The notes below the pieces were generated by a model, which searched no databases, had not been told where the DNA came from, and saw only the letters and a program-made list of their open reading frames with translations. Shown here piece after piece: positions 570-27,993 of a stretch of DNA of 64,000 nucleotides; the first letter of the stretch is position 1, and every line of letters starts with the position of its first letter. A program made the position numbers and the translations under genes. Source of the DNA: Ephemerocybe angulata (Eukaryota > Basidiomycota > Agaricomycetes > Agaricales > Psathyrellaceae); the NCBI GenBank assembly GCA_013368325.1, contig JAACJK010000020.1, positions 1 to 64,000 on the forward strand, in the 5' to 3' direction.

Positions 570-3500
570 ACCATTTGCACCCACTTCGACTACAAAGTCT
601 ATTTGATCAGAAGCTTCAAGAACGACCACGAGCGGGTCACACATGACGCTGGGGCTGGTCTTGAGGTGGTCACAGTCCTGAATACAGCACAGGTGAAGCT
701 GAGCTCACCTTCAGGGCTTCTGTTTCGAGTGCGAAATTAATTGGTACAACTTGCGGAGGCGGACCGCCCTGTGGATGGATTGCCTAATGCTCCAAAAAAT
801 CCACTTGAAGGTGAATCGAGCGAAGCAAGCCACAATTCCAGCTATAGTGGTAAGAGGAAACCCGGAACCCATTTGGATGACGATCACGAGATTCCAGTCT
901 GGACTGTACACCTTCAGAACCCCGTCCGTGTACCACCTTCTTCTTTGCCTGCGAAGACATACCCTCCAGGGCAACCGGGTATGAATTGTGAGTTATCAAG
1001 CTTCTCAGACTAGCTCAGTTCGACCACGACACGACTCTCTAGGTCTAAACTGAGTGGCGTCCAATCTCCCTCGAACCAAGATCCACGTCTTATTCAAAAT
1101 ATTTCTAGCCGATTCTCGAATCAATAAATGTAATAACCTTGGTAGAGAGAGGGAGGCACTGGCTGCAAACCAGAGGTCGACTATTCCGAAGAAGCGCCCG
1201 TCCGGAGTATGTACCTGTGAGACTGCTGAGTCAGAGCGTGATCGGCAAGCCCGGCTGTTCAAAAGAAAGAATGATTGGCCTCTCCTTTCACGTTCCAAGA
1301 CGATCCGAGGACTTCTACTGATAACAAGTCCTTCTTCAAGTCCCCCTTGTCTATATCATCTAACATTTCCTCACAAGGCAAAATCTTCATGGCCCACGAT
1401 GCAGTCAACGCTCTCTTGGCCACACAAAAGGAGCCTTCTATTGCTCAAAGCATCCTTGTTGATTGTATAAAGGAATACACGGCATGGGACAGGGAATACT
1501 GCAAAAAAGCACTTTCATCGTTACAGAGGATTGCAGAATCAACCAGGAAACCCTTAAACATAGGCAAGTGTCATGAAAAGATGCAGTTTACTTATATATA
1601 CTGACTGAGCATGGAGACACAAACCCGATCCAAACACCACAGAGCGATTGTGAGGTTGAGTTTGGCGAATTCCTCTGGTGTGACTACCCCGATGATGATG
1701 CTGGAGTAGAAATCAGGACGGAACATCGTGACCCTGTCGAAGTATATGTTGAGGAGTCATTCCTGCCACATCCACCGTACGAGTCCTGCGCTCCGGCGTC
1801 CCGCAATGTCAGAGTGGGCGATGATCCCGACATCATGCCTTTCATCCCATTTGCCGATGACCCCACCTTTGACCGGGAGGACTACTGTTGCGAGTTCCGC
1901 TCGTTCGCTTGGCAACGTCTTCATCAAGATCCTGATTGTCAGTACCTCTTCCATCTAATGAGACCAATATTTCACGCAACCCACAGTGGAAATGACTGTT
2001 AGGGAGATGGCCCGAAGGCTTACCCTTCCTGATCTTGAGCGAGCGGCGTCTGAGTCCAAACTAAAGTTGCTGTCATCTAGGAGGTAGGCCGTTAGGTCTT
2101 ATGTCCTGTGTCAATAGCTAAAATATTTGAAGGGACTATCCAGATACCATACCACTGGGCTGGAGCAGGGCGCCCTCCCGCCTCACTCCGCGTTACAAAG
2201 ATGCCCGCCCATCCGACATTCTAAGCGCTCTCCAAAGCTCTTTTTGTCATTCACAAAGCTGTGTGATAGCGTATTGCACTGTACACTGTGAGAAGTCGAT
2301 AACCTTTCCGATCCTAGACTGACTCAAGTAGTAGAGGATATAGCTCGACCAATCTCCAATGGAGGGGAAGTGCCCCTTGAATCGAGCCTACCAGAAAGGG
2401 AAGATCCATGTGGAACTGATTGCTACACTCTAGGGGCCCATGCCAATGACCTGGTATGTTACAGTTGACCAGGCAGTTTTTTTTAATGACGGCCATATGA
2501 TGCTAGGCAAATGATTCAACAACGAATGAAGCTGACGATGATCTCTGTACTGCAATCTTCCAAAATAGTCCGAGTGCCCTGCCCTGTGATCTCGCCATCA
2601 TTCTACGCCGGCCGTGTTTTGAGGTATGTTTCCAATCCAATGTCAATATCGTGCACCTGCAAATTTAATATCCACCGTTCCCTAGGTGGCCAGCTACCGC
2701 AACAGATTTTTTCAAAAGAGCAATCTGATCCTTCCGCCAAGGCCAGAATGTGATGTTGCTCTCAAAGGTTAATACACGATTCACAGTCTGTCTTGTGTGA
2801 TACTGATCAATATAAGTGGCCAATGCGTACAACCCATGTGTCATGTTCGTCTCAGCCATGTTACCATGTTGCCCCCATTCGCCACACTAACTTATTGATT
2901 GGTTCCCCAGCTGGAGTCCCTGCAGCCACAGCGGTCCGTGCAGTGATCAGCAAAATTGCAGTTGCTACTCAAACAACGTGGAATGCACGTATGACTGCCG
3001 TTGTGACCATCAATGTATGCCCTTTCTCACCTTTCATAGAGCACGAGCTCACATGAACCCTAGGCTCGCGCCAGAGAAAAGGATGCACCTGCAAAGTCAC
3101 GGGGCGCTGTTCAACACGTCGCTGTCGCTGCGCATTAATGCTTCGCGAGTGTGACCCAAGAATTTGCAATGGATGCACGTCAGGGTAAATGCATCTCTCC
3201 CTCAATGTAGACTTCCTATCTGAGTGACTGTATTGCTTGTAGTGATGCCTTGGGGTGCCTTAACATGGCGATTCAGCTCGGGCGGACAAGGGTGTGTCCC
3301 ATAGATATATATGGCTACATTTCTAATGCCGTGCATGCAGAGAACGAAGGTCCACCGCAGCAAGTTGGGCTTGGGCCTATTTATGGATGAAGACGCCAAC
3401 CAAGGGGACCTAATAACTGGTATGTGCATTACATCATAATCTATCATGGCCAGTTTTCATGGACGCACCAGAGTACATTGGCGAGGCCATTTTCAATGAA

Positions 3501-3964
3501 ACCGCCGAAACACGGGGGTAAGGATACTGCTACTGCTGAAGCCCTTTCCTGCATCAAGCTGATGTGCACCTCATGGCCAGATACATATCGAGGCACATTG
3601 GACGAGTGTACACCTACCAGTTGGACGAGACAATTCTCATTGACAGTGGGCAGGTTGGTAATGAAGCACGGTATATAAACCACAATCCCCGCAAAGCCAA
3701 CGCTAAAGCAAACAGTGTGCCATTTCACCAGACCCGGATGACTGCCATAGCTGACCGTAATTGTAGTTAAAAGTGTGAACGGCGAACATCGAATTGGAAT
3801 ATATGCCGGTACGAATGAACATGCTCTCCACTCTAATGTATCCCTAATCTTTCTCTGTAGCAACACACATATCCGAGGGCACCGAAATATTTCTAGACTA
3901 TGGACCTGAATTCTTTGGAGAAAACGAAATGGTAGATCCATACGAGGTTGAACAGCCCAAATAA
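570..3964 (+). CDS. EZH2: E(z)/EZH2-type H3K27 histone methyltransferase (KMT6)
   Basis: The product is predicted to trimethylate H3 lysine 27 in a PRC2-like nuclear complex. The downstream half resolves into exons with consistent phases: 2507-2623, 2686-2767, probably 2818-2860, 2912-3014, 3064-3184, 3243-3291, 3341-3419, 3472-3517, 3581-3714, 3767-3808 and 3861-3964. A CYTLG segment preceded by PCGTD near 2.4 kb matches the PCGxxCY motif of EZH2. Exons 2912-3184 encode a dense Cys array (CSDQQNCSCY, GCTCKVTGRCSTRRCRC, RECDPRICNGC), the CXC domain. The SET domain follows, with GLGLF, EYIGEAI, RYINHN, NGEHRIGIYA and the closing FLDYG. Coding-like exons reach back to about 570, including 1615-1941 and 1990-2085, which carry DPD-LEM-RRL as in fungal EZH2. 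The exact 5' end and some middle introns (for example around 2288-2328) are unresolved, so N-terminal damage cannot be excluded. It is the gene nearest the telomere. Confidence 0.85.
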
Positions 3965-4609: not shown

Positions 4610-4702
4610 TGACGTCACTCGCGGGAATGTGACAGAGCCCGCGAGTAGTCACAAGTTGTCACGCAACTCTGCTCGTGCCACGTCATTCTCATCTCAAGCA
4701 AT
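4610..4702 (+). promoter_or_regulatory. Palindromic promoter module of BAH-PHD gene 1
   Basis: A perfect CRE-type palindrome TGACGTCA (4610-4617) overlaps a nested inverted structure: TCACTCGCGGG, a short spacer with GTGACAGA, then CCCGCGAGTAGTCAC (to about 4652). The 20 bases before the ATG (GCCACGTCATT...CATCTCAAGC) are nearly identical to those before the paralogue at 12380. Conservation between otherwise diverged paralogues argues that this is regulatory. The factor that binds it is unknown. Confidence 0.6.
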
Positions 4703-5917
4703 ATGGCCAGAACCGCGAAAACCAAAGGCAGAAAGGCAAAGAAGGCTAAGTCGGCTCCCGGCGCTGCAAAGAAGGCTAAGTCGGCTCCCGGCGCTGTTGG
4801 GGGGAAGTCTCCGGTGATCACGGTCGCGACGATCAAGTACCTCAAGCAGGTTCAAAAGGTCACCTTGATCGGCGAGAACAAAAAAGATCAACATGAGTTG
4901 GAGCCCGGCCAAGTGTAAGCCTTCTGCAGTATCTCCATTAAACCAACGATGACACAGCTCTCCTCCAGGCTCTACATTAGGCGACCCGAAATGGCACACC
5001 AGACCATATTCGACGATGGATGGAAGACGAACATGGTATACGTGGTCTCCGTTCACGAGGGGCACGTGGAGGGGGATCATTGGGTCCTCTGCAAGAACCT
5101 TTACCGCTCGAACGAGGCCACTCTCGCACACATTGACGAGGACCGGCGCAAGAACCTCGGCATTGCCGAAGTAGTTTTCTCCTCCGATGAGTCGATCTAT
5201 AAGACCACCGACATTGTTTGTAAGTCTGCTACTTTTGTCCTGGCGCAAAGTGGCTCAGCGTTTCGCCTACAGCGCCCGTCAACGTCCACATCTTCAACGA
5301 GGAGGATTTTGACCAGCAGGTCATTCCCACGTCGGAATGGTGGTGCCGCTATTATCTAGATAACGGCGAGCTCCGTGGCCTCCGGGTAAGCAAACCGTTC
5401 CTCGCTCTTGATGATACTGACCGATTGTAATTTATAGGGCACATTGAGCGCCCCCGAACTCGGCGAGTTTCACGAGGGGTGCGCTCAATGCCAAGAACCA
5501 TACAATTCCAACGACCATGCTAAGCAGCAGATCTACTGCCGCCATTGTGGCAAATGGCTCCACATCTCTTGCTGCATTGACGAGCCAGCGATGAATAAGC
5601 GTCCCCCGCGTTGGGTCGAGTCCAGGGGGCCCGCTACTGAAAAGGCGAAGCAGTTGGTGAAAAATCTGAAGGACCTCCCCATCATACGGGGGGCCTTCTA
5701 CCTTGATGAGGAAGATTCCATGCGGGAGGACTGGATGCTTTGCGGGTCTGGGCTTGTAGTTACTAACTTCCAAGCTCATGTGGACAGCCTTCTCGCAAGG
5801 ACCCCCCTGACTGAGCGCATGGTGAACGACTTGTTTGGTCACGAAGATGTCGCCGCCGATATCAGTGAGATTGACCTGCCCTTCATCCCATGCCCTCGTT
5901 GCCACAGTCAATTGTGA
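4703..5917 (+). CDS. BAH-PHD chromatin reader with H3-tail-like N-terminus (paralogue 1)
   Basis: Four exons (4703-4914, 4969-5219, 5273-5385, 5438-5917) give 351 aa; all phases close and the paralogue at 11160-12380 has the same intron positions. Residues 1-37 are basic and start MARTAK; two copies of AKKAKSAPGA then GAVGGKSP resemble the H3 K27 region. About residues 72-192 form a BAH domain (WVLCKNLYR, LGIAEVVFSSDESIY, PVNVHIFNEEDF, EWWCRYY). A C4HC3 PHD-like finger uses C207, C210, C226, C229, H234 and C237. Its last Cys pair, C344 and C347, lies after an insertion of about 105 residues. BAH-PHD proteins such as Neurospora EPR-1 act in H3K27me3 silencing; a reader role here is inferred from the fold and from the adjacent EZH2-type gene. 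The ATG is chosen because both paralogues share MART. Confidence 0.88.
4736..4795 (+). repeat. Perfect 30-bp in-frame tandem duplication inside BAH-PHD gene 1
   Basis: Two identical 30-base copies (4736-4765 and 4766-4795) each encode AKKAKSAPGA. They double a KSAP motif like that around H3 lysine 27. Perfect identity suggests a recent duplication. The second paralogue lacks it. Confidence 0.9.
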
Positions 5918-6199: not shown

Positions 6200-7248
6200 C
6201 CCAGTGAGAACCCACCTTCGGCCAGGTGCGGTGAGTATCGTCCCAGCTCGGGATTTTCAGCATCTGATATCCCGAGACTGGACGAGCTGGAACGAAACCT
6301 GCCGTCAGATTGAGACAGTATTTCTCGTCTCATCTCACTATATTCTGGCCAATCTCGGCGGTTCAGGAGACCGAGATGGACCGAGATTCTTTGACCAATG
6401 ATTTATTGCATTTTTGGGGGCCCCGGGCTCCTCCTCCTGGCACGGTTTCATAGAGAAATGGGTCTATTTCAAGCGAATTCTAGCTACAGTACAGTTGAAG
6501 GAATAGGAAACTACAGAGGTACGCCATTGTTGCAGGGGGATGCAGGCCGGCGCAGGCGCAGGGGACGGGGCTCGAGAATGGTAGAGGCGCGAGAACTGAG
6601 AACATGTTCGTTGGGCGGGGGGTGGAGGCGAGATTTTCGAGTGGGAAACAAGGTGTAGAAGCGGCTGTGAAAGCTGGACTGGAAGCACAATAGCCCGGGA
6701 ATGATGAAGGGAGTGCGCGTACCAACTCCTCCTCCTCCCTTTGCCTGCATGGCTATGTAGCCCTCCTCGCTTATGAAGTCAGTTGAGAGTAATTACGCCA
6801 GGAGCTACCACAGACTCACCGCCAACATCATTTATTGGATCAGATGCAAACACGCCCTGTCGAATTCGGCCGCTACGTGGGCGGGGACATCTCGTGAAGG
6901 GGGTCTGGCGGAGGACATGGGGTGATGGTAAGAAGTGAAGATTGGCGCAGCTTCGTGAACTCGACTTCCGACTGTTTGCAATTGTCTAAGTCAGCGAATA
7001 CCACGGAAATTACTGCTAATATGATTTGAATATGATCATATTCACGCAGGATTGACACGGGAGTCACCAGAGTACTATAGCAGGTTATGAATAACATTAG
7101 TTTATCTATCTAGTGCCAGAGTAGAGCCATGGTTTGCCGAGATTGAGAAGGAGGCCGCTGTGAGTAACCGTGACTGACCAAAGTCCCATCTCGGGGCCGC
7201 GATTTGACGATACTCACCGCACCTGGCCGAAGGTGGGTTCTCACTGGG
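6200..7248. mobile_element. Non-autonomous DNA element with 43-bp terminal inverted repeats
   Basis: The 43 bases at 6200-6242 (starting CCCAGTGAGAACCCACC) are a perfect reverse complement of 7206-7248. The roughly 1,050-base interior has no transposase; its reading frames are short and unmatched. Further inverted pieces containing CCGAGATTG occur near 6350 and 7138. I see no convincing target-site duplication at either end, so the superfamily is unassigned. It lies between BAH-PHD gene 1 and the SET gene, with its right end about 220 bases before the chosen SET start codon. Confidence 0.75.
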
Positions 7249-7466: not shown

Positions 7467-8648
7467 ATGGTCCACAAAATCCTCGATTCTGCCAAACAGC
7501 CGAAGGTCCCTACGGAAGATCTCACCTTGATATTTGGAGGGAGGATCAGTAGCAATGGCCCATTTGAGCCCAAGAAAGCCTCCGAGGCTACCTTTCTTTC
7601 TTCGCTAGGTCACATTACCTTCCTGAATGAGATCGACAAGGACGAGGATACGCCGCCTTTCTACTACTCAGACGAGGCATATCGCGCTTTGGTCGTACCA
7701 GGTCCTGACACTGAGATCCTGGAAGGCTGCAAGTGCCGGGGCTCATGCCACCCTGATCATAACGACTGTTCCTGCAATGTGGCGTATACAAAGGATGGGA
7801 GGTTGCTGGACGGTCTAGACGAACAGCCCATTCGGGAGTGCAACCTGAACTGTAGCTGCTCTATGCACTGCCGAAACCGAGTAAGTGAGGTTAAGCCAGT
7901 CTTCCAGGTTCAGTCGCTTATATCCAGCCTGTGAATGTATAAGGTTGTTCAACAAGGCATAAAGCACAATTTTTCCATCACAAAAACAATTGGAAAGGGC
8001 TACGGCGTATACTGCTATGAGGAGTCTATCCCTAAAGGGACATTTGTTGGTGTGTACGCTGGAGAAGTGATGAGGTGGAACGACGCTGCTGACCGGATCG
8101 GGTTTGTCTCCCGCCCTTACACGTCTGACACCTTTTCAAATACTAATAAAGCCTCGTTCCAGTGCAAAGGACGCACTCACAAACCCAAAGGGTCGGTATG
8201 TATTTGCAATAAACTTTCCACACCTGCAGACCGATGGCTGGGTGCCCGAATACGTGGTAGACGCATATCAAGTTGGAAACGTAAGTCAGTCCCCATTGTT
8301 GCTCTTGGTGATGCCCTTATACCAATGGTTGAGGTAGTTCACAAGATTTTTGGTGAGCATCTCAGTAATACGGTGTAGGCTAAAGTGATCATTGTGTTTC
8401 ACCCTCAGAACCATAGCTGCAGCCCCAATGCCTCTGCAAAAGCTTGTTACATAGATGACCACCTCCCATTTGCTCCTCTCATCGCTTTTTTTGCAACCCA
8501 GGATATTGCTCCAGGAGAAGAGATCACAATTAGCTATGGTAAAGACGGCGAGGGCCTGCTTACGTGCCCCATATCAGATAATGATTGTCTTTGTGGCGCC
8601 TCGAACTGTACAGGTAAGCATAATCGGCGATATACAGACATATACTGA
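7467..8648 (+). CDS. SUV39/KMT1-type SET-domain histone methyltransferase
   Basis: Five exons (7467-7880, 7944-8101, 8163-8280, 8338-8352, 8409-8648) join in phase to 314 aa. A nine-cysteine pre-SET domain (residues about 88-138, CKCRGSC to CSCSMHC) precedes a SET domain with KGYGVYC, GVYAGEV, VDAYQVGN, NHSCSPNA at 236-243 and EEITISYG. The post-SET motif is CLCGASNC. This is the SUV39/Clr4/DIM-5 arrangement, so H3K9 methylation is expected. Exon 4 is only 15 bases and supplies FTRFL just before NHSC; without it the SET core breaks. No chromodomain is visible in the N-terminal 87 residues. The reading frame continues upstream of the chosen ATG (to at least 7371), so an additional 5' exon is possible. 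The frame could also continue by splicing at 8612 into a downstream exon. It sits between two BAH-PHD genes. Confidence 0.85.
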
Positions 8649-11159: not shown

Positions 11160-12380
11160 TCAAATGTTGGCCTTGCAAACAGGACATGGAATGTAGGGGA
11201 AGTCGAATTCACGAAGGTCAGCAAGAAGACCCGCGTTTCCAAAGATACCTTCCACCCTCTTCTCCGTGAGACTTTTCCTTTTCAGAAGATCGGGCACCTG
11301 CGATCGGAAGGCGGAAACCACCCTTCCAGACCCACAAAGCATCCAGTTCTCCCGCATCGAATCATCGGCAACAGCGTAGAAGGCTCCCCGAATGATTGGG
11401 AGGTCCTTCAGATTGTTCACCAACACACTCACCCTTTCGGTAGGGGACTGCTGCTCGGCGGCCTCCACCCAACGCGATGGGCACTTGTTCATTTCTTCCT
11501 CGGCTATGCAGCAGGAGATGTGGAACCATCTGGCGCAATCGCGGCAATAGATCTGCTGTTTGTCGATGTCATTGGGGTTGTAAGCCATGTCACAACAGGC
11601 GGGGCCCTGGTAGAACACGTCGGCACTTGGCTGGGCCAACGTACCCTATGCATTCCAATCCATAAGTGCATTCGAGAGCGAGGAGCAGTTTGCTTACCTT
11701 GAGGCCGTGGAGCTCGCCTTCCTTGAAATAGTAGCGGCACCACCAATCCGACGCAGGAATCGCCTCCTGGTTAAACTCTTGCTCATTGAGGATGTGGACG
11801 TCGACGGGTGCTGTAGACAAAACACTGAGCCACTTGACACGTATGCCAGGACAAAAGTAGCCGACGTACAAATGACATCGTCTACCTTATTGACCGATAG
11901 GTCATCCGATAAAATCACCTCTGCGATGCCGAGGTTCCTCAGGCGGGGGTTGTCATCGGCAATGTCTGTAATAGTGGCCTCATCCCGGCGGTAGACGTTT
12001 CGGAAAAGGATCCAAAAATCGTTCTTCTTGTAAACCTTGTGGAGCGACACGACTACCTTGATATCTGCATCCCAACCATCATCGAACTTGGTCTTGTCGG
12101 CTTGGCCCTTCGGCCTGACGTAAAGCCTGAGAAGCATCGCTGGTTAGCACACTTCGGTTGAATGAGGGCACGGCAGACCGTCTTACACCTGCCCCGGCAT
12201 CACCACATGGTCATCACAATCCGACTCGATCGTGACGGTACTGACCCTAGGGAACGAGTCGATGTTGTGGGTGGTAATTGCCGGAACCTTCCCGCCAACG
12301 TTGCCGCGAGATGACCCAGCGTTCTTCCTTGCCAGTTGTTGCTTCGGTGTTTTGCCTTTCACTTTCGCGGTTCTGGCCAT
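11160..12380 (-). CDS. BAH-PHD chromatin reader with H3-tail-like N-terminus (paralogue 2)
   Basis: Four exons on the minus strand (12380-12187, 12126-11870, 11810-11698, 11645-11160) give 349 aa; the three intron sites and phases match paralogue 1. The N-terminus starts MARTAKVKGK; residues after Met 8-21 (GKTPKQQLARKNAG) match H3 13-26 at 8 of 14 positions, followed by a VGGK. The BAH domain carries FWILFRNVYR, LGIAEVILSDDLSV, PVDVHILNEQEF and WWCRYYF. The PHD-like finger has CCDMAYN, YCRDCARWFHISCC and a distant CPVC close to the C-terminus. It is inverted relative to paralogue 1, and the two bracket the SUV39-type gene. A shared promoter module lies directly upstream. Binding specificity is inferred, not shown. 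Confidence 0.87.
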
Positions 12381-17426: not shown

Positions 17427-20400
17427 GCCCAAATTTGGCAGTCATCCATTTCTTTGTTTGCACATTGTTTGTGCACATAGCGCATGAAGCCAACTCATGA
17501 GTGGGCACTGTCACGCAGCATTGGGTGAGGATGAGAGAAGAACCAATGGGTGTTCAGTGGTATCATGTCGACCTGGAAGCCATCAGAGTAAGTTATGTCA
17601 AATGATCTACGTCAATTCAAGCATGCCTCCTCCTCTGAGGGGAGGTTTGCCATGATGTCGCTCAAGGGTTTCCTGCAGCATAGTATCGTATTTCGCTTGT
17701 AGCCAGCCATGTTCGTCGTGGCCTCTGCCTGTTGGAGCAGCCTCCGCTCTTCGGAGGATCCTTTGTCCTTCATCCGCCCTTTGTACTTTGTCTGCCCTTC
17801 TTCCTTTGTCCGCCCTTCGTCCTTCGTCCTTCGGAGTTCGGAGGACCGTCGTCCTACAGAGGACTGTCGGAAGGAGTGTTGTCCTTCGTCCTTCGAGGAA
17901 CCATGGTCAACTAAACGGTAAAGCCCATGCAAACCGATGCACTCACATCATCATCATCGAGAATAGCAGAAGAGGAGCCTGAAAGGAAAATGGCGGTCGA
18001 CTTTACGTTAACGCTCAAGTTGAGCGATTCAACGTCCTTATCTAGGAGCAGGTCTACCCCAGTAGCCTAGGGCTACCAGAGCTCCGATCGAGGTCTTCTC
18101 ATAAAGGGTCCTTATATGGAACAGTTAACTTCCCTGAACAGTTTTCCGATTGTCGTCGTCGATGTCCGAGGTCATGACACAGACACTCGGAGGCATTGCA
18201 GAGTTCTACTGTGAACAGTGAAAAACGGGGGATGGATTGGTGCTTCATCCGGCCTTCGTCCTTTGTGGCCATGTCTTTGTTTGCAACCACTTGCACGGTT
18301 GCCCAAATTTGGCAGTCATCCATTTCTTTGTTTGCACATTGTTTGTGCACATAGCGCATGAAGCCAACTGCATGAGTAGGCACCGTCAAGCAGCATTGGG
18401 TGAGGGCGAGAAAAGAACCAAGGAGTGTTCAGCGGTATCATGTCAACCTGGAAGCCATCAGAGTAAGTTATGTCAAATGATCTACGTCAATTCAAGCATG
18501 CCTCCTCCTCTGAGGGGAGGTTTGCCATGATGTCCCTCAAGGGTTTCCTGCAGCATAGCATCGTATTTCGCTTGTAGCTGGCCATGTTTGCCGCGACCTC
18601 CGCCCGCTGGAGCGGCCTCCGTCCTTGTCCATCAGCGTCATCATGGGCCGGCCACCGCCCCTCGCCAGGAGGGGAGACGTACGAGAAAGGTGTCGCCAAC
18701 GATCCACGCTGGAGCACGGCCACCTACTGTGCCGACATTCTTCCTGCCTAGCCACATGATGTAGTGTAGATCTTGGAGAAGATCTCCCTACATGCCAGAC
18801 CTTCCATCCAGGCACGCACATCCATCCTTCCAGGAACTCCCTCAAACTCTGCCCTTCGGAGCGCCCTCTGCCCTTCGGAGCGCCCTCTGTTCACGCTGGA
18901 GTCGCCGCCCAAGGGAGGCGAGCAGAGTCAAGCTGCCGTAGAGGAGGAGGGCGATGCCGAGATGAAGGGCATGATCATCGAGTGCATGGCGACCTCAGGT
19001 GCGAGCTCGATGCCCGCTTCGGAGTGCCCTCCGCCCTTCGGAGTGCCCTCCGCCCTTCGGAGTGCCCTCCGCCCTTCGGAGCGCCCTCCGAAGGGCAAGC
19101 TGCCTGTACCACCGAGTCTCCACTATTGACGTCGTGTCCCACACTTTCTGTCGGTTGTTACGATACCCAACTGTATACCATGTAGAGCTGAAGGAGCTAG
19201 ACAATTAACGGCGAGTACGTACTACACCCAAAAGCCCTCCGCCCTTCGGAACGCCCTCCGGAAAGGCATCTTCCGAATGAGGAGCTCGGTGGACGCTTGG
19301 AAGCTCCTTATTTCGTGCAGCACAGTCTGCCCTGGTCGGAAACGGGGATTCATCCTTCCAGGAACTCCCTCAAACTGCGGACGAGTCTTTGGAAAGGCAT
19401 CTTCCGGATGAGGAGCTCGGTGGACGCTTGGAAGCCCTTTATTTCGTGCAACACAGTCTGCCCTGGTCGGAAACGGGGAGCGACCTCCGTGCTCATCCAT
19501 CCTTCCAGGAACTCCCTCAAACTCCGCCCTTCAGAGCGCTCTCCGCCCTTCGGAGCGCCCTCCGCCCTTTGGAGCAGCCTCCAAGATGTTATTCCTTTGG
19601 CCAAGAGGATGTCTGTTAATACACGCATGAATGCAATACCACATACCACTTCCATCTCTGTCAATCCCTTGAGTGAGCTCCGACCAGTAGGTTAGCACAC
19701 GGCTCGAGTATGTCAGCGTCATGGTGTCTACTTGATGCAGCTCCTCAACTCATCTTTCGTGAGGCTGCATGGGTGAGTAACGTTGGCTGAGGGTTCTTAG
19801 GAACCGTGGATGATTGGTCCTTATCAAAGGTGTAAAAAGTCACCATGGTCTCACCCAAACCAATATTGGGAGATCATTAAATGCTCATCGGCATCTACAG
19901 TACTTTGGGATTAGTATGTAGTCTGGCGATGATCTTCGATTAGGACAGTCACTCACATGTCATACCGCACCCCACAAACAAAAGGCCAAAGGACATACAC
20001 TGCTGTCCATCACTATACGACACACATCTTCACAGCCATCCGGGTCCGAGAAACACCCTTGAGGTATCCCGTCGATGCTGACAAGAGCAACCAAAGCAGG
20101 GCCTTCGGAGGGGCCACCCGGAGATTGGCCTGTCTGAAAGGGGTGACCACCCCTTCCGACAGTTCCTGTCCATCAGTGTCATCGTGGGTCGGCTCTTCCA
20201 CGAGAACCTTCCCATGTGGAACATCGGTGAGGGATGCGGTGCTCGGACGGCCAAAGATTATGCGCAGTGGCTCTCGACTCAGCCAGCCTCGATAACGGAC
20301 CCAGGCTGCAGGGGTAAGCATCGTTGGGCTTTACAGCGTGACGGTGCCCAGGTCGACAGGAGGAACGTGACAGCAGCAAAATGACTGGCCATTTCTTTGT

Positions 20401-22030
20401 TTGCAACCACTTGCACGGTTGCCCAAATTTGGCAGTCATCCATTTCTTTGTTTGCAACCGCTTGCACGGTTGCCCAAATTTGGCAGTCATCCATTTCTTT
20501 GTTTGCACATTGTTTGTGCACATAGCGCATGAAGCCAACTGCATGAGTAGGCACCGTCAAGCAGCATTGGGTGAGGGCGAGAAAAGAACCAAGGAGTGTT
20601 CAGCGGTATCATGTCGACCTGGAAGCCATCAGAGTAAGTTATGTCAAATGATCTACGTCAATTCAAGCATGCCTCCTCCTCTGAGGGGAGGTTTGCCATG
20701 ATGTCACTCAAGGGTTTCCTGCAGCATAGCATCGTATTTCGCTTGTAGCTGGCCATGTTTGCCGCGACCTCCGCCCGCTGGAGCGGCCTCCGTCCTTGTC
20801 CATCAGCGTCATCATGGGCCGGCCACCGCCCCTCGCCAGGAGGGGAGACGTACGAGAAAGGTGTCGCCAACAATCCACGCTGGAGCACGGCCACCTACTG
20901 TGCCGACATTCTTCCTGCCTAGCCACATGATGTAGTGTAGATCTTGGAGAAGATCTCCTCCTACATGCCAGACCTTCCATCCAGGCATGCACATCCATCC
21001 TTCCAGGAACTCCCTCAAACTCTGCCCTTCGGAGCGCCCTCTGCCCTTCGGAGCGCCCTCTGTTCACGCTGGAGTCGCCGCCCAAGGGAGGCGAGCAGAG
21101 TCAAGCTGCCGTAGAGGAGGAGGGCGATGCCGAGATGAAGGGCATGATCATCGAGTGCATGGCAACCTCAGGTGCGAGCTCGATGCCCGCTTCGGAGTGC
21201 CCTCCGCCCTTCGGAGTGCCCTCCGCGCTTCGGAGTGCCCTCCGCCCTTTGGAGTGCCCTCCGCCCTTCGGAGTGCCCTCCTCCCTTCGGAGCGACCTCA
21301 GGTGCGAGCTCGATGCCCGTGTCGCTCGTGGCGAGGACGGTCATGCACCCGAGACTCAAGGCGGAGAATCTTTATTACCTCTTGCTTCCGGCCTTTCATG
21401 TTTGGAGATTTAACTCTCACAAGTAAGGGTCTTTCGGATAATGAATCAGGGGTCCAGACTTACAGTTTACTTTACCTGCATTATAGGCGATGACGACTTC
21501 ATAGACGCGGGAATGGGGAAGCTAGGGGAACTGTCAATACAGAAAGGTTGTCTACAAAGAATGCGAGCCCAAGAAACACGTGAAGTCATCCGGTGTCACT
21601 GGTAGCCCCTCTGGTCACCCTCCGCCCTTCGGAGTGCCCTCCGCCCTTCGGAGTGCCCTCCGGAAAGGCATCTTCCGAATGAGGAGCTCGGTGGACGCTT
21701 GGAAGCTCCTTATTTCGTGCAACACAGTCTGCCCTGGTCGGAAACGGGGAGCGACCTCCGTGCTCATCCATCCTTTCAGGAACTCCCTCAAACTCCGCCC
21801 TTCAGAGCGCTCTCCGCCCTTCGGAGCGCCCTCCGCCCTTTGGAGCAGCCTCCAAGATGTTATTCCTTTGGCCAAGAGGATGTCTGTTAATACACGCATG
21901 AATGCAATACCACATACCACTTCCATCTCTGTCATGGGCTTTACAGCGTGACGGTGCCCAGGTCGACAGGAGGAACGTGACAGCAGCAAAATGACTGGCC
22001 ATTTCTTTGTTTGCAACCGCTTGCACGGTT
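17427..22030. repeat. Subtelomeric segmental repeat, unit 1 (4,604 bp)
   Basis: This block recurs 4,604 bases downstream with near identity over most of its length. It contains three starts of a core of about 300 bases (17427, 18301, 20472; beginning GCCCAAATTTGGCAGTCATCC), 19-bp GCCCTCCGCCCTTCGGAGT minisatellites near 19020 and 21195, and 51-bp modules near 20391-20510. Decayed coding-like patches appear on the minus strand, for example [19 protein letters not shown] and KPLSDIMANLPSEEEA. No intact gene is present. A roughly 1.3-kb part found in other units is deleted around 21934, where the sequence jumps from TCCATCTCTGTC to TGGGCTTTACAGCG. Confidence 0.9.
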
Positions 22031-25000
22031 GCCCAAATTTGGCAGTCATCCATTTCTTTGTTTGCACATTGTTTGTGCACATAGCGCATGAAGCCAACTC
22101 ATGAGTGGGCACTGTCACGCAGCATTGGGTGAGGATGAGAGAAGAACCAATGGGTGTTCAGTGGTATCATGTCGACCTGGAAGCCATCAGAGTAAGTTAT
22201 GTCAAATGATCTACGTCAATTCAAGCATGCCTCCTCCTCTGAGGGGAGGTTTGCCATGATGTCGCTCAAGGGTTTCCTGCAGCATAGTATCGTATTTCGC
22301 TTGTAGCCAGCCATGTTCGTCGTGGCCTCTGCCTGTTGGAGCAGCCTCCGCTCTTCGGAGGATCCTTTGTCCTTCATCCGCCCTTTGTACTTTGTCTGCC
22401 CTTCTTCCTTTGTCCGCCCTTCGTCCTTCGTCCTTCGGAGTTCGGAGGACCGTCGTCCTACAGAGGACTGTCGGAAGGAGTGTTGTCCTTCGTCCTTCGA
22501 GGAACCATGGTCAACTAAACGGTAAAGCCCATGCAAACCGATGCACTCACATCATCATCATCGAGAATAGCAGAAGAGGAGCCTGAAAGGAAAATGGCGG
22601 TCGACTTTACGTTAACGCTCAAGTTGAGCGATTCAACGTCCTTATCTAGGAGCAGGTCTACCCCAGTAGCCTAGGGCTACCAGAGCTCCGATCGAGGTCT
22701 TCTCATAAAGGGTCCTTATATGGAACAGTTAACTTCCCTGAACAGTTTTCCGATTGTCGTCGTCGATGTCCGAGGTCATGACACAGACACTCGGAGGCAT
22801 TGCAGAGTTCTACTGTGAACAGTGAAAAACGGGGGATGGATTGGTGCTTCATCCGGCCTTCGTCCTTTGTGGCCATGTCTTTGTTTGCAACCACTTGCAC
22901 GGTTGCCCAAATTTGGCAGTCATCCATTTCTTTGTTTGCACATTGTTTGTGCACATAGCGCATGAAGCCAACTGCATGAGTAGGCACCGTCAAGCAGCAT
23001 TGGGTGAGGGCGAGAAAAGAACCAAGGAGTGTTCAGCGGTATCATGTCGACCTGGAAGCCATCAGAGTAAGTTATGTCAAATGATCTACGTCAATTCAAG
23101 CATGCCTCCTCCTCTGAGGGGAGGTTTGCCATGATGTCCCTCAAGGGTTTCCTGCAGCATAGCATCGTATTTCGCTTGTAGCTGGCCATGTTTGCCGCGA
23201 CCTCCGCCCGCTGGAGCGGCCTCCGTCCTTGTCCATCAGCGTCATCATGGGCCGGCCACCGCCCCTCGCCAGGAGGGGAGACGTACGAGAAAGGTGTCGC
23301 CAACGATCCACGCTGGAGCACGGCCACCTACTGTGCCGACATTCTTCCTGCCTAGCCACATGATGTAGTGTAGATCTTGGAGAAGATCTCCCTACATGCC
23401 AGACCTTCCATCCAGGCACGCACATCCATCCTTCCAGGAACTCCCTCAAACTCTGCCCTTCGGAGCGCCCTCTGCCCTTCGGAGCGCCCTCTGTTCACGC
23501 TGGAGTCGCCGCCCAAGGGAGGCGAGCAGAGTCAAGCTGCCGTAGAGGAGGAGGGCGATGCCGAGATGAAGGGCATGATCATCGAGTGCATGGCGACCTC
23601 AGGTGCGAGCTCGATGCCCGCTTCGGAGTGCCCTCCGCCCTTCGGAGTGCCCTCCGCCCTTCGGAGTGCCCTCCGCCCTTCGGAGCGCCCTCCGAAGGGC
23701 AAGCTGCCTGTACCACCGAGTCTCCACTATTGACGTCGCGTCCCACACTTTCTGTCGGTTGTTACGATACCCAACTGTATACCATGTAGAGCTGAAGGAG
23801 CTAGACAATTAACGGCGAGTACGTACTACACCCAAAAGCCCTCCGCCCTTCGGAACGCCATCCGGAAAGGCATCTTCCGAATGAGGAGCTCGGTGGACGC
23901 TTGGAAGCTCCTTATTTCGTGCAGCACAGTCTGCCCTGGTCGGAAACGGGGATTCATCCTTCCAGGAACTCCCTCAAACTGCGGACGAGTCTTTGGAAAG
24001 GCATCTTCCGGATGAGGAGCTCGGTGGACGCTTGGAAGCCCCTTATTTCGTGCAACACAGTCTGCCCTGGTCGGAAACGGGGAGCGACCTCCGTGCTCAT
24101 CCATCCTTCCAGGAACTCCCTCAAACTCCGCCCTTCAGAGCGCTCTCCGCCCTTCGGAGCGCCCTCCGCCCTTTGGAGCAGCCTCCAAGATGTTATTCCT
24201 TTGGCCAAGAGGATGTCTGTTAATACATGCATGAATGCAATACCACATACCACTTCCATCTCTGTCAATCCCTTGAGTGAGCTCCGACCAGTAGGTTAGC
24301 ACACGGCTCGAGTATGTCAGCGTCATGGTGTCTACTTGATGCAGCTCCTCAACTCATCTTTCGTGAGGCTGCATGGGTGAGTAACGTTGGCTGAGGGTTC
24401 TTAGGAACCGTGGATGATTGGTCCTTATCAAAGGTGTAAAAAGTCACCATGGTCTCACCCAAACCAATATTGGGAGATCATTAAATGCTCATCGGCATCT
24501 ACAGTACTTTGGGATTAGTATGTAGTCTGGCGATGATCTTCGATTAGGACAGTCACTCACATGTCATACCGCACCCCACAAACAAAAGGCCAAAGGACAT
24601 ACACTGCTGTCCATCACTATACGACACACATCTTCACAGCCATCCGGGTCCGAGAAACACCCTTGAGGTATCCCGTCGATGCTGACAAGAGCAACCAAAG
24701 CAGGGCCTTCGGAGGGGCCACCCGGAGATTGGCCTGTCTGAAAGGGGTGACCACCCCTTCCGACAGTTCCTGTCCATCAGTGTCATCGTGGGTCGGCTCT
24801 TCCACGAGAACCTTCCCATGTGGAACATCGGTGAGGGATGCGGTGCTCGGACGGCCAAAGATTATGCGCAGTGGCTCTCGACTCAGCCAGCCTCGATAAC
24901 GGACCCAGGCTGCAGGGGTAAGCATCGTTGGGCTTTACAGCGTGACGGTGCCCAGGTCGACAGGAGGAACGTGACAGCAGCAAAATGACTGGCCATTTCT

Positions 25001-26213
25001 TTGTTTGCAACCACTTGCACGGTTGCCCAAATTTGGCAGTCATCCATTTCTTTGTTTGCAACCGCTTGCACGGTTGCCCAAATTTGGCAGTCATCCATTT
25101 CTTTGTTTGCACATTGTTTGTGCACATAGCGCATGAAGCCAACTGCATGAGTAGGCACCGTCAAGCAGCATTGGGTGAGGGCGAGAAAAGAACCAAGGAG
25201 TGTTCAGCGGTATCATGTCGACCTGGAAGCCATCAGAGTAAGTTATGTCAAATGATCTACGTCAATTCAAGCATGCCTCCTCCTCTGAGGGGAGGTTTGC
25301 CATGATGTCACTCAAGGGTTTCCTGCAGCATAGCATCGTATTTCGCTTGTAGCTGGCCATGTTTGCCGCGACCTCCGCCCGCTGGAGCGGCCTCCGTCCT
25401 TGTCCATCAGCGTCATCATGGGCCGGCCACCGCCCCTCGCCAGGAGGGGAGACGTACGAGAAAGGTGTCGCCAACAATCCACGCTGGAGCACGGCCACCT
25501 ACTGTGCCGACATTCTTCCTGCCTAGCCACATGATGTAGTGTAGATCTTGGAGAAGATCTCCCTACATGCCAGACCTTCCATCCAGGCATGCACATCCAT
25601 CCTTCCAGGAACTCCCTCAAACTCTGCCCTTCGGAGCGCCCTCTGCCCTTCGGAGCGCCCTCTGTTTACGCTGGAGTTGCCGCCCAAGGGGGGCGAGCAG
25701 AGTCAAGCTGCCGTAGAGGAGGAGGGCGATGCCGAGATGAACGGCATGATCATCGAGTGCATGGCGACCTCAGGTGCGAGCTCGATGCCCGCTTCGGAGT
25801 GCCCTCCGCCCTTCGGAGTGCCCTCCGCCCTTCGGAGCGCCCTCCGCCCTTCGGAGCGCCCTCCGCCCTTTGGAGTGCCCTCCGCCCTTTGGAGCGACCT
25901 CAGGTGCGAGCTCGATGCCCGTGTCGCTCGTGGCGAGGACGGTCATGCACCCGAGACTCAAGGCGGAGAATCTTTATTACCTCTTGCTTCCGGCCTTTCA
26001 TGTTTGGAGATTTAACTCTCAGGGTCTTTCGGATAATGAATCAGGGGTCCAGACTTACAGTTTACTTTACCTGCATTATAGGCGATGACGACTTCATAGA
26101 CGCGGGAATGGGGAAGCTAGGGGAACTGTCAATACAGAAAGGTTGTCTACAAAGAATGCGAGCCCAAGAAACACGTGAAGTCATCCGGTGTCACTGGTAG
26201 CCCCTCTGGTCAC

Positions 26214-26382
26214 CCTCCGCCCTTCGGAGTGCCCTCCGCCCTTCGGAGTGCCCTCCGCCCTTCGGAGTGCCCTCCGCCCTTCGGAGTGCCCTCCGCCCTT
26301 CGGAGTGCCCTCCGCCCTTCGGAGTGCCCTCCGCCCTTCGGAGTGCCCTCCGCCCTTCGGAGTGCCCTCCGCCCTTCGGAGT
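26214..26382. repeat. 19-bp minisatellite array, GTGC variant
   Basis: About nine tandem copies of GCCCTCCGCCCTTCGGAGT. Every copy has the T in GGAGTG. Three units equal 57 bases, so all plus frames stay open and give Pro/Ser-rich pseudo-proteins. Confidence 0.95.
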
Positions 26383-26625
26383 GTCCAGACTTACAGTTTA
26401 CTTTACCTGCATTATAGGCGATGACGACTTCATAGACGCGGGAATGGGGAAGCTAGGGGAACTGTCCAGACTTACAGTTTACTTTACCTGCATTATAGGC
26501 GATGACGACTTCATAGACGCGGGAATGGGAAAGCCAGGGGGACTGTCGATACAGAAAGGTTGTCTACAAAGAATGCGAGCCCAAGAAACACGTGAAGTCA
26601 TCCGGTGTCACTGGTAGCCCCTCTG

Positions 26626-26826
26626 GTCGCCCTCCACCCTTCGGAGCGCCCTCCGCCCTTCGGAGCGCCCTCCGCCCTTCGGAGCGCCCTCCGCCCTTCG
26701 GAGCGCCCTCCGCCCTTCGGAGCGCCCTCCGCCCTTCGGAGCGCCCTCCGCCCTTCGGAGCGCCCTCCGCCCTTCGGAGCGCCCTCCGCCCTTCGGAGCG
26801 CCCCCCGCCCTTCGGAGCGCCCTCCG
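26626..26826. repeat. 19-bp minisatellite array, GCGC variant
   Basis: About ten tandem copies of the same 19-bp unit, here with C in GGAGCG in every copy. One copy has CCCC in place of CCTC near 26803. It lies only about 240 bases from the GTGC-variant array. Confidence 0.95.
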
Positions 26827-27993
26827 GAAAGGCATCTTCTGAATGAGGAGCTCGGTGGACGCTTGGAAGCTCCTTATTTCGTGCAACACAGTCTGCCCTG
26901 GTAGGAAACAGGGATTCATCCTTCCAGGAACTCCCTCAAACTGCGGACGAGTCTTTGGAAAGGCATCTTCCGGATGAGGAGCTCGGTGGACGCTTGGAAG
27001 CCCTTTATTTCGTGCAACACAGTCTGCCCTGGTCGGAAACGGGGAGCGACCTCCGTGCTCATCCATCCTTCCAGGAACTCCCTCAAACTCCGCCCTTCAG
27101 AGCGCTCTCCGCCCTTCGGAGCGCCCTCCGCCCTTTGGAGCAGCCTCCAAGATGTTATTCCTTTGGCCAAGAGGATGTCTGTTAATACACGCATGAATGC
27201 AATACCACATACCACTTCCATCTCTGTCAATCCCTTGAGTGAGCTCCGACCAGTAGGTTAGCACACGGCTCGAGTATGTCAGCGTCATGGTGTCTACTTG
27301 ATGCAGCTCCTCAACTCATCTTTCGTGAGGCTGCATGGGTGAGTAACGTTGGCTGAGGGTTCTTAGGAACCGTGGATGATTGGTCCTTATCAAAGGTGTA
27401 AAAAGTCACCATGGTCTCACCCAAACCAATATTGGGAGATCATTAAATGCTCATCAGCATCTACAGTACTTTGGGATTAGTATGTAGTCTGGCGATGATC
27501 TTCGATTAGGACAGTCACTCACATGTCATACCGCACCCCACAAACAAAAGGCCAAAGGACATACACTGCTGTCCATCACTATACTTAGGACGACACACAT
27601 CTTCACAGCCATCCGGATCCGAGAAACACCCTTGAGGTATCCCATCGATGCTGACAAGAGCAACCAAAGCAGGGCCTTCGGAGGGGCCACCCGGAGATTG
27701 GCCTGTCTGAAAGGGGTGACCACCCCTTCCGACAGTTCCTGTCCATCAGTGTCATCGTGGGTCGGCTCTTCCACGAGAACCTTCCCATGTGGAACATCGG
27801 TGAGGGATGCGGTGCTCGGACGGCCAAAGATTATGCGCAGTGGCTCTCGACTCAGCCAGCCTCGATAACGGACCCAGGCTGCAGGGGTAAGCATCGTTGG
27901 GCTTTACAGCGTGACGGTGCCCAGGTCGACAGGAGGAACGTGACAGCAGCAAAATGACTGGCCATTTCTTTGTTTGCAACCGCTTGCACGGTT

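Follow-up and report, generated by a model that had tools for sequence, protein, structure and literature searches.

Locus and gene content

The window analysed here is a 64,000-bp stretch (bases 1–64000) of contig C80 (68,876 bp) from the 58.7-Mb genome of Ephemerocybe angulata, an agaric of the family Psathyrellaceae, and it opens with CCCTAA telomere repeats, indicating that the contig is telomere-ended. Gene A (4703–5917, + strand) encodes a BAH–PHD-like protein of 351 amino acids in four coding exons (4703–4914, 4969–5219, 5273–5385 and 5438–5914, with the stop codon at 5915–5917). The product of this gene model starts with MARTAKTKGRKAKKAKSAPG and is identical over 351/351 residues, the start included, to the E. 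angulata protein D9611_014973. No further methionine occurs until residue 79, which already belongs to the BAH-like part, making a downstream translation start unlikely. A genome search revealed one further copy, gene B (11160–12380, − strand), which encodes 349 amino acids beginning with MARTAKVKGKTPKQQLARKNAGSSRGNVGGK in four exons (12380–12187, 12126–11870, 11810–11698 and 11645–11160, stop codon included). A and B share 53% identity and have introns at equal positions, and both genes look constrained, with a dN of 0.38 and a dS of 0.94 between them.

An earlier reading of this DNA from its letters alone (hereafter, the sequence-only reading) had placed an EZH2-type enzyme next to A, along with a SUV39-type enzyme. 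Both are present: partial matches identify an EZH2-type CXC-SET gene (3069–3931, +) and a SUV39-type Pre-SET/SET gene (7722–8615, +), giving the order EZH2-type gene, A, SUV39-type gene and then B. Elsewhere in the genome, more EZH2-type matches occur on contig C214 and more SUV39-type matches on C185 and C67. This setting suggests a chromatin gene cluster, although adjacency does not prove a functional link between its members. The EZH2-type SET gene reads NHNPRKAN at a position usually occupied by NHS, and its activity is accordingly uncertain. Between A and the SUV39-type gene lies a 52-nt inverted repeat (6200–6251 and 7197–7248, 92% complementary and 945 nt apart), which possibly marks the two termini of a small mobile element. 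An Rfam scan of the 64-kb window gave no matches.

N-terminal tails of A and B

The first 33 to 37 amino acids of the two proteins resemble the tail of histone H3. Exon 1 of A encodes the tail MARTAKTKGRKAKKAKSAPGAAKKAKSAPGAVGGKSP (4703–4813, +), which contains 12 lysine and arginine residues and no aspartate or glutamate and, as noticed in the sequence-only reading, begins Ala-Arg-Thr after the methionine, like H3. The tail of B, MARTAKVKGKTPKQQLARKNAGSSRGNVGGKVP (12282–12380, −; nine lysine and arginine residues, none acidic), lies outside the stretch considered in that reading, which did not mention it, and is the better H3 match of the two, with 11 of 22 residues identical to H3 G13–G34 in an ungapped alignment. 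The earlier observation of an H3-like tail at 4703–4813 thus stands and extends to the paralogue, whereas the account that was built on it holds only in part. The extreme N-termini have MARTAK.KG in common, and A1-R2-T3, an acid-free basic run and VGGK.P recur in both tails. Position 4 is alanine in both, where H3 has Lys4, and the equivalent of Lys4 is displaced to position 5.

We compared the tails with composition-preserving shuffles, in sets of 5,000 that held Met or MART fixed or left MART out, and in sets of 20,000 that left MART out. With MART removed, the likeness to animal-type H3 gave p values of 0.027–0.039 for A and 0.0004–0.0010 for B (0.027 and 0.0004 in the 20,000 shuffles), and the likeness to three H3 tails of E. 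angulata itself gave 0.027–0.075 and 0.0004–0.0016, respectively (20,000 shuffles). Twelve gap settings yielded 0.011–0.039 for A and 0.0005–0.0025 for B, and the least favourable setting, a local alignment with MART fixed, yielded 0.106 and 0.0044. The tails of H4, H2A and H2B and the reversed H3 tail produced no signal for A or B; with a smallest p of 0.081 (B against H2B), other histone tails were rejected as the model for these tails. As a background, 2,043 distinct stop-to-stop stretches of 30 amino acids or more (2,265 when overlapping loci and duplicates are included) were drawn from the window plus 11 further loci, with the H3-search loci left out. In likeness to the H3 tail beyond MART, B ranked first and A second in this background, which consists mostly of non-coding frames and is not a proteome. 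A search of 177,635 PDB sequences with the B tail reported a single one, histone H3mm7, ungapped and with a weak E value of 2.7, and the A tail reported none from the PDB sequence set. Within its own genome, the B tail matched only B itself and A (E 0.29) and none of the H3 genes. Judged from these comparisons, B probably has a genuine likeness to H3, and that of A is marginal.

The common start is also conserved at the DNA level. At the degenerate residues shared by A and B, the codons are identical in seven of seven cases within the first ten, as compared with 107 of 171 overall, and the upstream regions are likewise conserved as DNA. A palindromic element, TCGCGGG-n-CCCGCGA, lies upstream of A (4619–4646, +) and of B (12522–12495, −), the only two places in the genome where it was found with up to three mismatches allowed. 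Gene B has a second, similar palindromic copy closer to its start. Since the first codons and the upstream DNA are conserved as DNA, the MARTAK start may owe part of its preservation to something other than the peptide. Base arithmetic puts an ATG followed by ART codons at about 1 in 2,000 per ATG, and the window contains three such strings against 1.10 expected, a count reached in 12 of 100 shuffles; by themselves, ART codons after an ATG are no rarity.

The K27-like register of A

The sequence-only reading numbered K25-S26-A27-P28 and G32-G33 of A after Met removal, which is correct, and took this KSAP as the counterpart of H3 K27. The register results from an exact 30-bp tandem repeat in the A tail (4736–4796, +), of which the two copies encode AKKAKSAPGA twice, and the first unit yields another KSAP at K15. 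Paralogue B lacks the repeat; in its tail, a serine aligns with H3 K27, and the alignment is gapped over the K9 part. EZH2 prefers Arg26, and because the residue preceding the KSAP lysine of A is alanine where H3 has this arginine, the site is no obvious EZH2 substrate. Although the A tail contains GRK and KSAP and the B tail contains ARK at residues 16–18, no K9 or K27 site is shared by the two.

Five H3 loci of E. angulata itself were compared: two on C154 and single ones on C86, C128 and C117, the last with an in-frame stop. From the residue after K27 up to the intron, they read TAA, TAA, TAQ, TAQ and TAT, giving the sites ARKTAA (two loci), ARKTAQ (two) and ARKTAT (one), with SAP in none of the five. 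The KSAP of A therefore matches animal-type H3 and not these loci, which have threonine after K27 and no Pro30. Ser28 and Pro30 of H3 are reported to be used by H3K27me3-reading BAH domains (PMC13068663), and up to the intron, the five loci have neither. No ARKS- or ARKT-like site stands in register in both paralogues and matches the species' own H3. The K27 reading of A thus gives way to a repeat-made register that is absent from B and from the five H3 loci.

BAH–PHD-like body

The sequence-only reading had described the rest of the protein as BAH and PHD modules that read H3 tails. PHD-like and BAH-like parts are indeed present, but the Pfam BAH model reported neither A nor B, both fell under the cut-off of the Pfam PHD model, and by alignment the BAH cage Trp is absent. 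The BAH–PHD assignment rests on a profile of the two sequences, whose top PDB hits were EBS and SHL (E 3.9e-4 to 6e-4), and on a UniRef name. EBS and SHL were not found with A alone as the query, and a BAH family search of the genome reported four other places, with A and B not among them.

We judged the cage residues from the HMMER alignment of A and B to EBS and SHL. In the BAH cage (Tyr, Trp, Tyr), the tryptophan is replaced by asparagine in both proteins, the following tyrosine is kept and the first tyrosine lies outside the alignment. SHL His88 and Asp90, reported to bind S28 and P30 of H3 (PMC6013494), are Asp and Ser in A and B. By alignment, the BAH-like part would thus lack the residues of an H3K27me3 reader, namely the cage Trp and the His/Asp pair that contacts S28 and P30. 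In the PHD-like part, Tyr214 and Trp232 of A stand at the SHL cage positions Tyr148 and Trp163, where B also has Tyr and Trp; the counterpart of Tyr141 is ambiguous in the alignment, and the first PHD zinc cysteine of A (C207) is proline in B. Between the sixth zinc ligand of the PHD-like part and a C-terminal CPxC, which may complete that part, A and B have about 106 well-conserved residues (A ~238–343; NLKDLPIIRGAFY..DSMRE.WMLCGSG). Structure prediction from the two sequences gave a mean pLDDT of 30.2 and no usable model.

Protein-database searches scored 7,996, 645 and 4,750 candidates and reported one, two and two of them, respectively, every one from E. angulata. Other species thus yielded no homologue among the candidates scored, which were word-limited and, for the set of 7,996, also capped, so that absence elsewhere is not implied; the gene B protein was not returned either, although B words stood in two of the queries. 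Besides A itself, the searches reported a single relative, P0002, from another strain record of E. angulata, which lacks a MART tail and appears to be rearranged or wrongly modelled.

Comparison with known systems

PAF15 is a PCNA partner that is not known to have a BAH or PHD. Like A and B, it is a non-histone protein with an H3-like extreme N-terminus, which reads x-R-T once Met is removed. This N-terminus is reported to be read and ubiquitylated by UHRF1, the PHD recognition of its VRTK sequence depending on R and T, with a small effect of mutating the lysine at the K4 position (PMC7060239). The fungal tails differ in having ARTA in place of VRTK, and their PHD binding is predicted only. 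As the K4-position residue of PAF15 matters little, ARTA presents no obvious bar to PHD binding.

The sequence-only reading knew of no H3-tail mimic attached to a BAH–PHD reader. An H3 mimic in a reader has been published, though not on a BAH–PHD protein: the linker between the PHD and bromodomain of BAZ2B is described as an H3-like, Lys-rich, disordered segment that acts in cis, in the same chain as the PHD (PMC5663869). The BAZ2B linker is internal, whereas the tails of A and B are free N-termini ahead of the BAH-like part, for which in-cis binding is hypothetical. H3 mimics are already known from PAF15 and BAZ2B, and A and B would be a variant of that kind. Among the matches listed from the open-licence literature, we found no H3 mimic on a BAH–PHD protein, and no paper naming E. 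angulata together with subtelomere and histone.

The plant BAH–PHD readers SHL and EBS share the BAH-then-PHD order with A and B, which differ from them in the unconserved cage Trp and S28/P30 His/Asp residues and in the ~106 extra residues inside the PHD-like part. The fungal EPR-1 and BP1 have the same order. EZHIP (H3K27M-like), PALI1/JARID2 and G9a/ATF7IP exemplify non-histone H3-like peptides that engage H3 enzymes or readers, and the part of H3 that they copy is the K27 or the K9 site. In A and B, by contrast, neither site is preserved in both paralogues. K27-site mimicry of the EZHIP/PALI1 type was rejected, given an AKSAP without the arginine, the repeat-made register, the serine in B and the ARKTA of the species' own H3.

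Interpretation of the tails

The reading that we favour, by analogy with PAF15 and UHRF1, is that the N-terminal extension of A and B serves as an H3-tail bait for PHD-type H3 binders; we assign it a probability of roughly 0.4 and regard a chance resemblance of a basic tail as about equally probable. Removal of the initiator Met would expose A1-R2-T3, a PHD finger would grip this Ala-Arg-Thr end, in trans in the first place, and the tail would thereby recruit H3-binding factors to chromatin, with tail methylation forming no part of the account. PHD fingers like that of UHRF1 hold an exposed ART end, and a PAF15-like PHD ligand is favoured because A1-R2-T3 is kept in both tails. The bait reading is further supported by the MARTAK.KG start of both proteins, the ungapped 11/22 identity of B, the shuffle p values, the specificity for H3, ranks 1 and 2 in the background, the H3mm7 match and the constraint on the genes. 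It is opposed by the weakness of the PDB match (E 2.7), the lack of any such match for the A tail, the marginal p values of A (0.106 in one setting), the missing match to the species' own H3 genes, the conservation of the start as DNA, the displacement of Lys4 to position 5 and the fact that no orthologue was found outside the species. If the bait reading is true, the pair would be a natural case of a chromatin protein that presents the end of H3 rather than reading H3. The histone mimics in the literature surveyed come from viruses and vertebrate regulators; this pair is fungal and has an H3-like N-terminus on a degenerate BAH–PHD body, with EZH2- and SUV39-type genes adjacent, at a telomere. 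It also offers a small, testable pair of peptides, in which B is clearly H3-like and A has diverged by repeat expansion.

The equally weighted alternative is a disordered, basic tail that binds nucleic acid or nucleosomes, its H3 likeness reflecting shared composition and an inherited chance ART. Both tails are rich in Lys and Arg and free of acidic residues, AKKAKSAPGA-like repeats such as that of the A tail occur in linker histones, the p values of A are marginal, ART codons after an ATG are not rare, and the start codons of A and B are conserved together with the upstream DNA; on the other hand, the likeness of B stands up to shuffling that preserves composition and, of the histone tails compared, extends to H3 alone. 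An unlikely possibility is in-cis autoinhibition, in which the tail would dock on its own PHD (or BAH) and compete with nucleosomal H3, as proposed by analogy with the Lys-rich linker of BAZ2B (PMC5663869). The Tyr and Trp that both proteins keep at the PHD cage positions of SHL (Tyr148 and Trp163) would suit such docking, which is at odds with the loss of the cage Trp and S28/P30-reading residues from the BAH-like part, the replacement of C207 by proline in B and the lack of a usable structural model (pLDDT 30). It is very unlikely that A and B are self-linking silencers, in which the H3-like N-terminus would dock in the PHD of the next molecule and form head-to-tail A/B chains by the telomere, the H3 lookalike then serving as an assembly tag that replaces the nucleosome. 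The account given in the sequence-only reading, that a neighbouring EZH2-type or SUV39-type enzyme methylates the tail and the BAH reads the mark, appears highly improbable: SET genes flank A on both sides and the tails contain ARK (B, 16–18) or GRK and KSAP (A), but the KSAP has no Arg before it and stands in register only through the tandem repeat, B has serine at K27, the species' own H3 reads ARKTA, and the BAH cage Trp is absent.

Equally remote is descent from an ancestral BAH–PHD gene that captured the 5′ exon of an H3 gene. Pieces of the H3 core and divergent copies of H3 occur at scattered sites in the genome, several of them in the window, but the window fragments match the H3 core and not the tail, and synonymously recoded versions of the tails come as close to two H3 genes of the species as the actual tail DNA does (p 0.34–0.66), by which test a recent H3-exon capture was rejected. 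Descent from the tail of a divergent own H3 variant was also rejected (p 0.24 for A and 0.026 for B). The divergent H3 genes (C55:316800–318200 and C154:233000–234500; unusual tail, MPQTARKT..., GKQTARKMALKNPIRGGK...) have a core about two-thirds identical to canonical H3. The window contains seven histone H3 core matches (RFRPGQTVLHEIRSFQASTELLIRKMPFQRLVR and alike; 19243–27050, −) within long subtelomeric repeats, and these resemble pieces of the divergent genes on C55 and C154.
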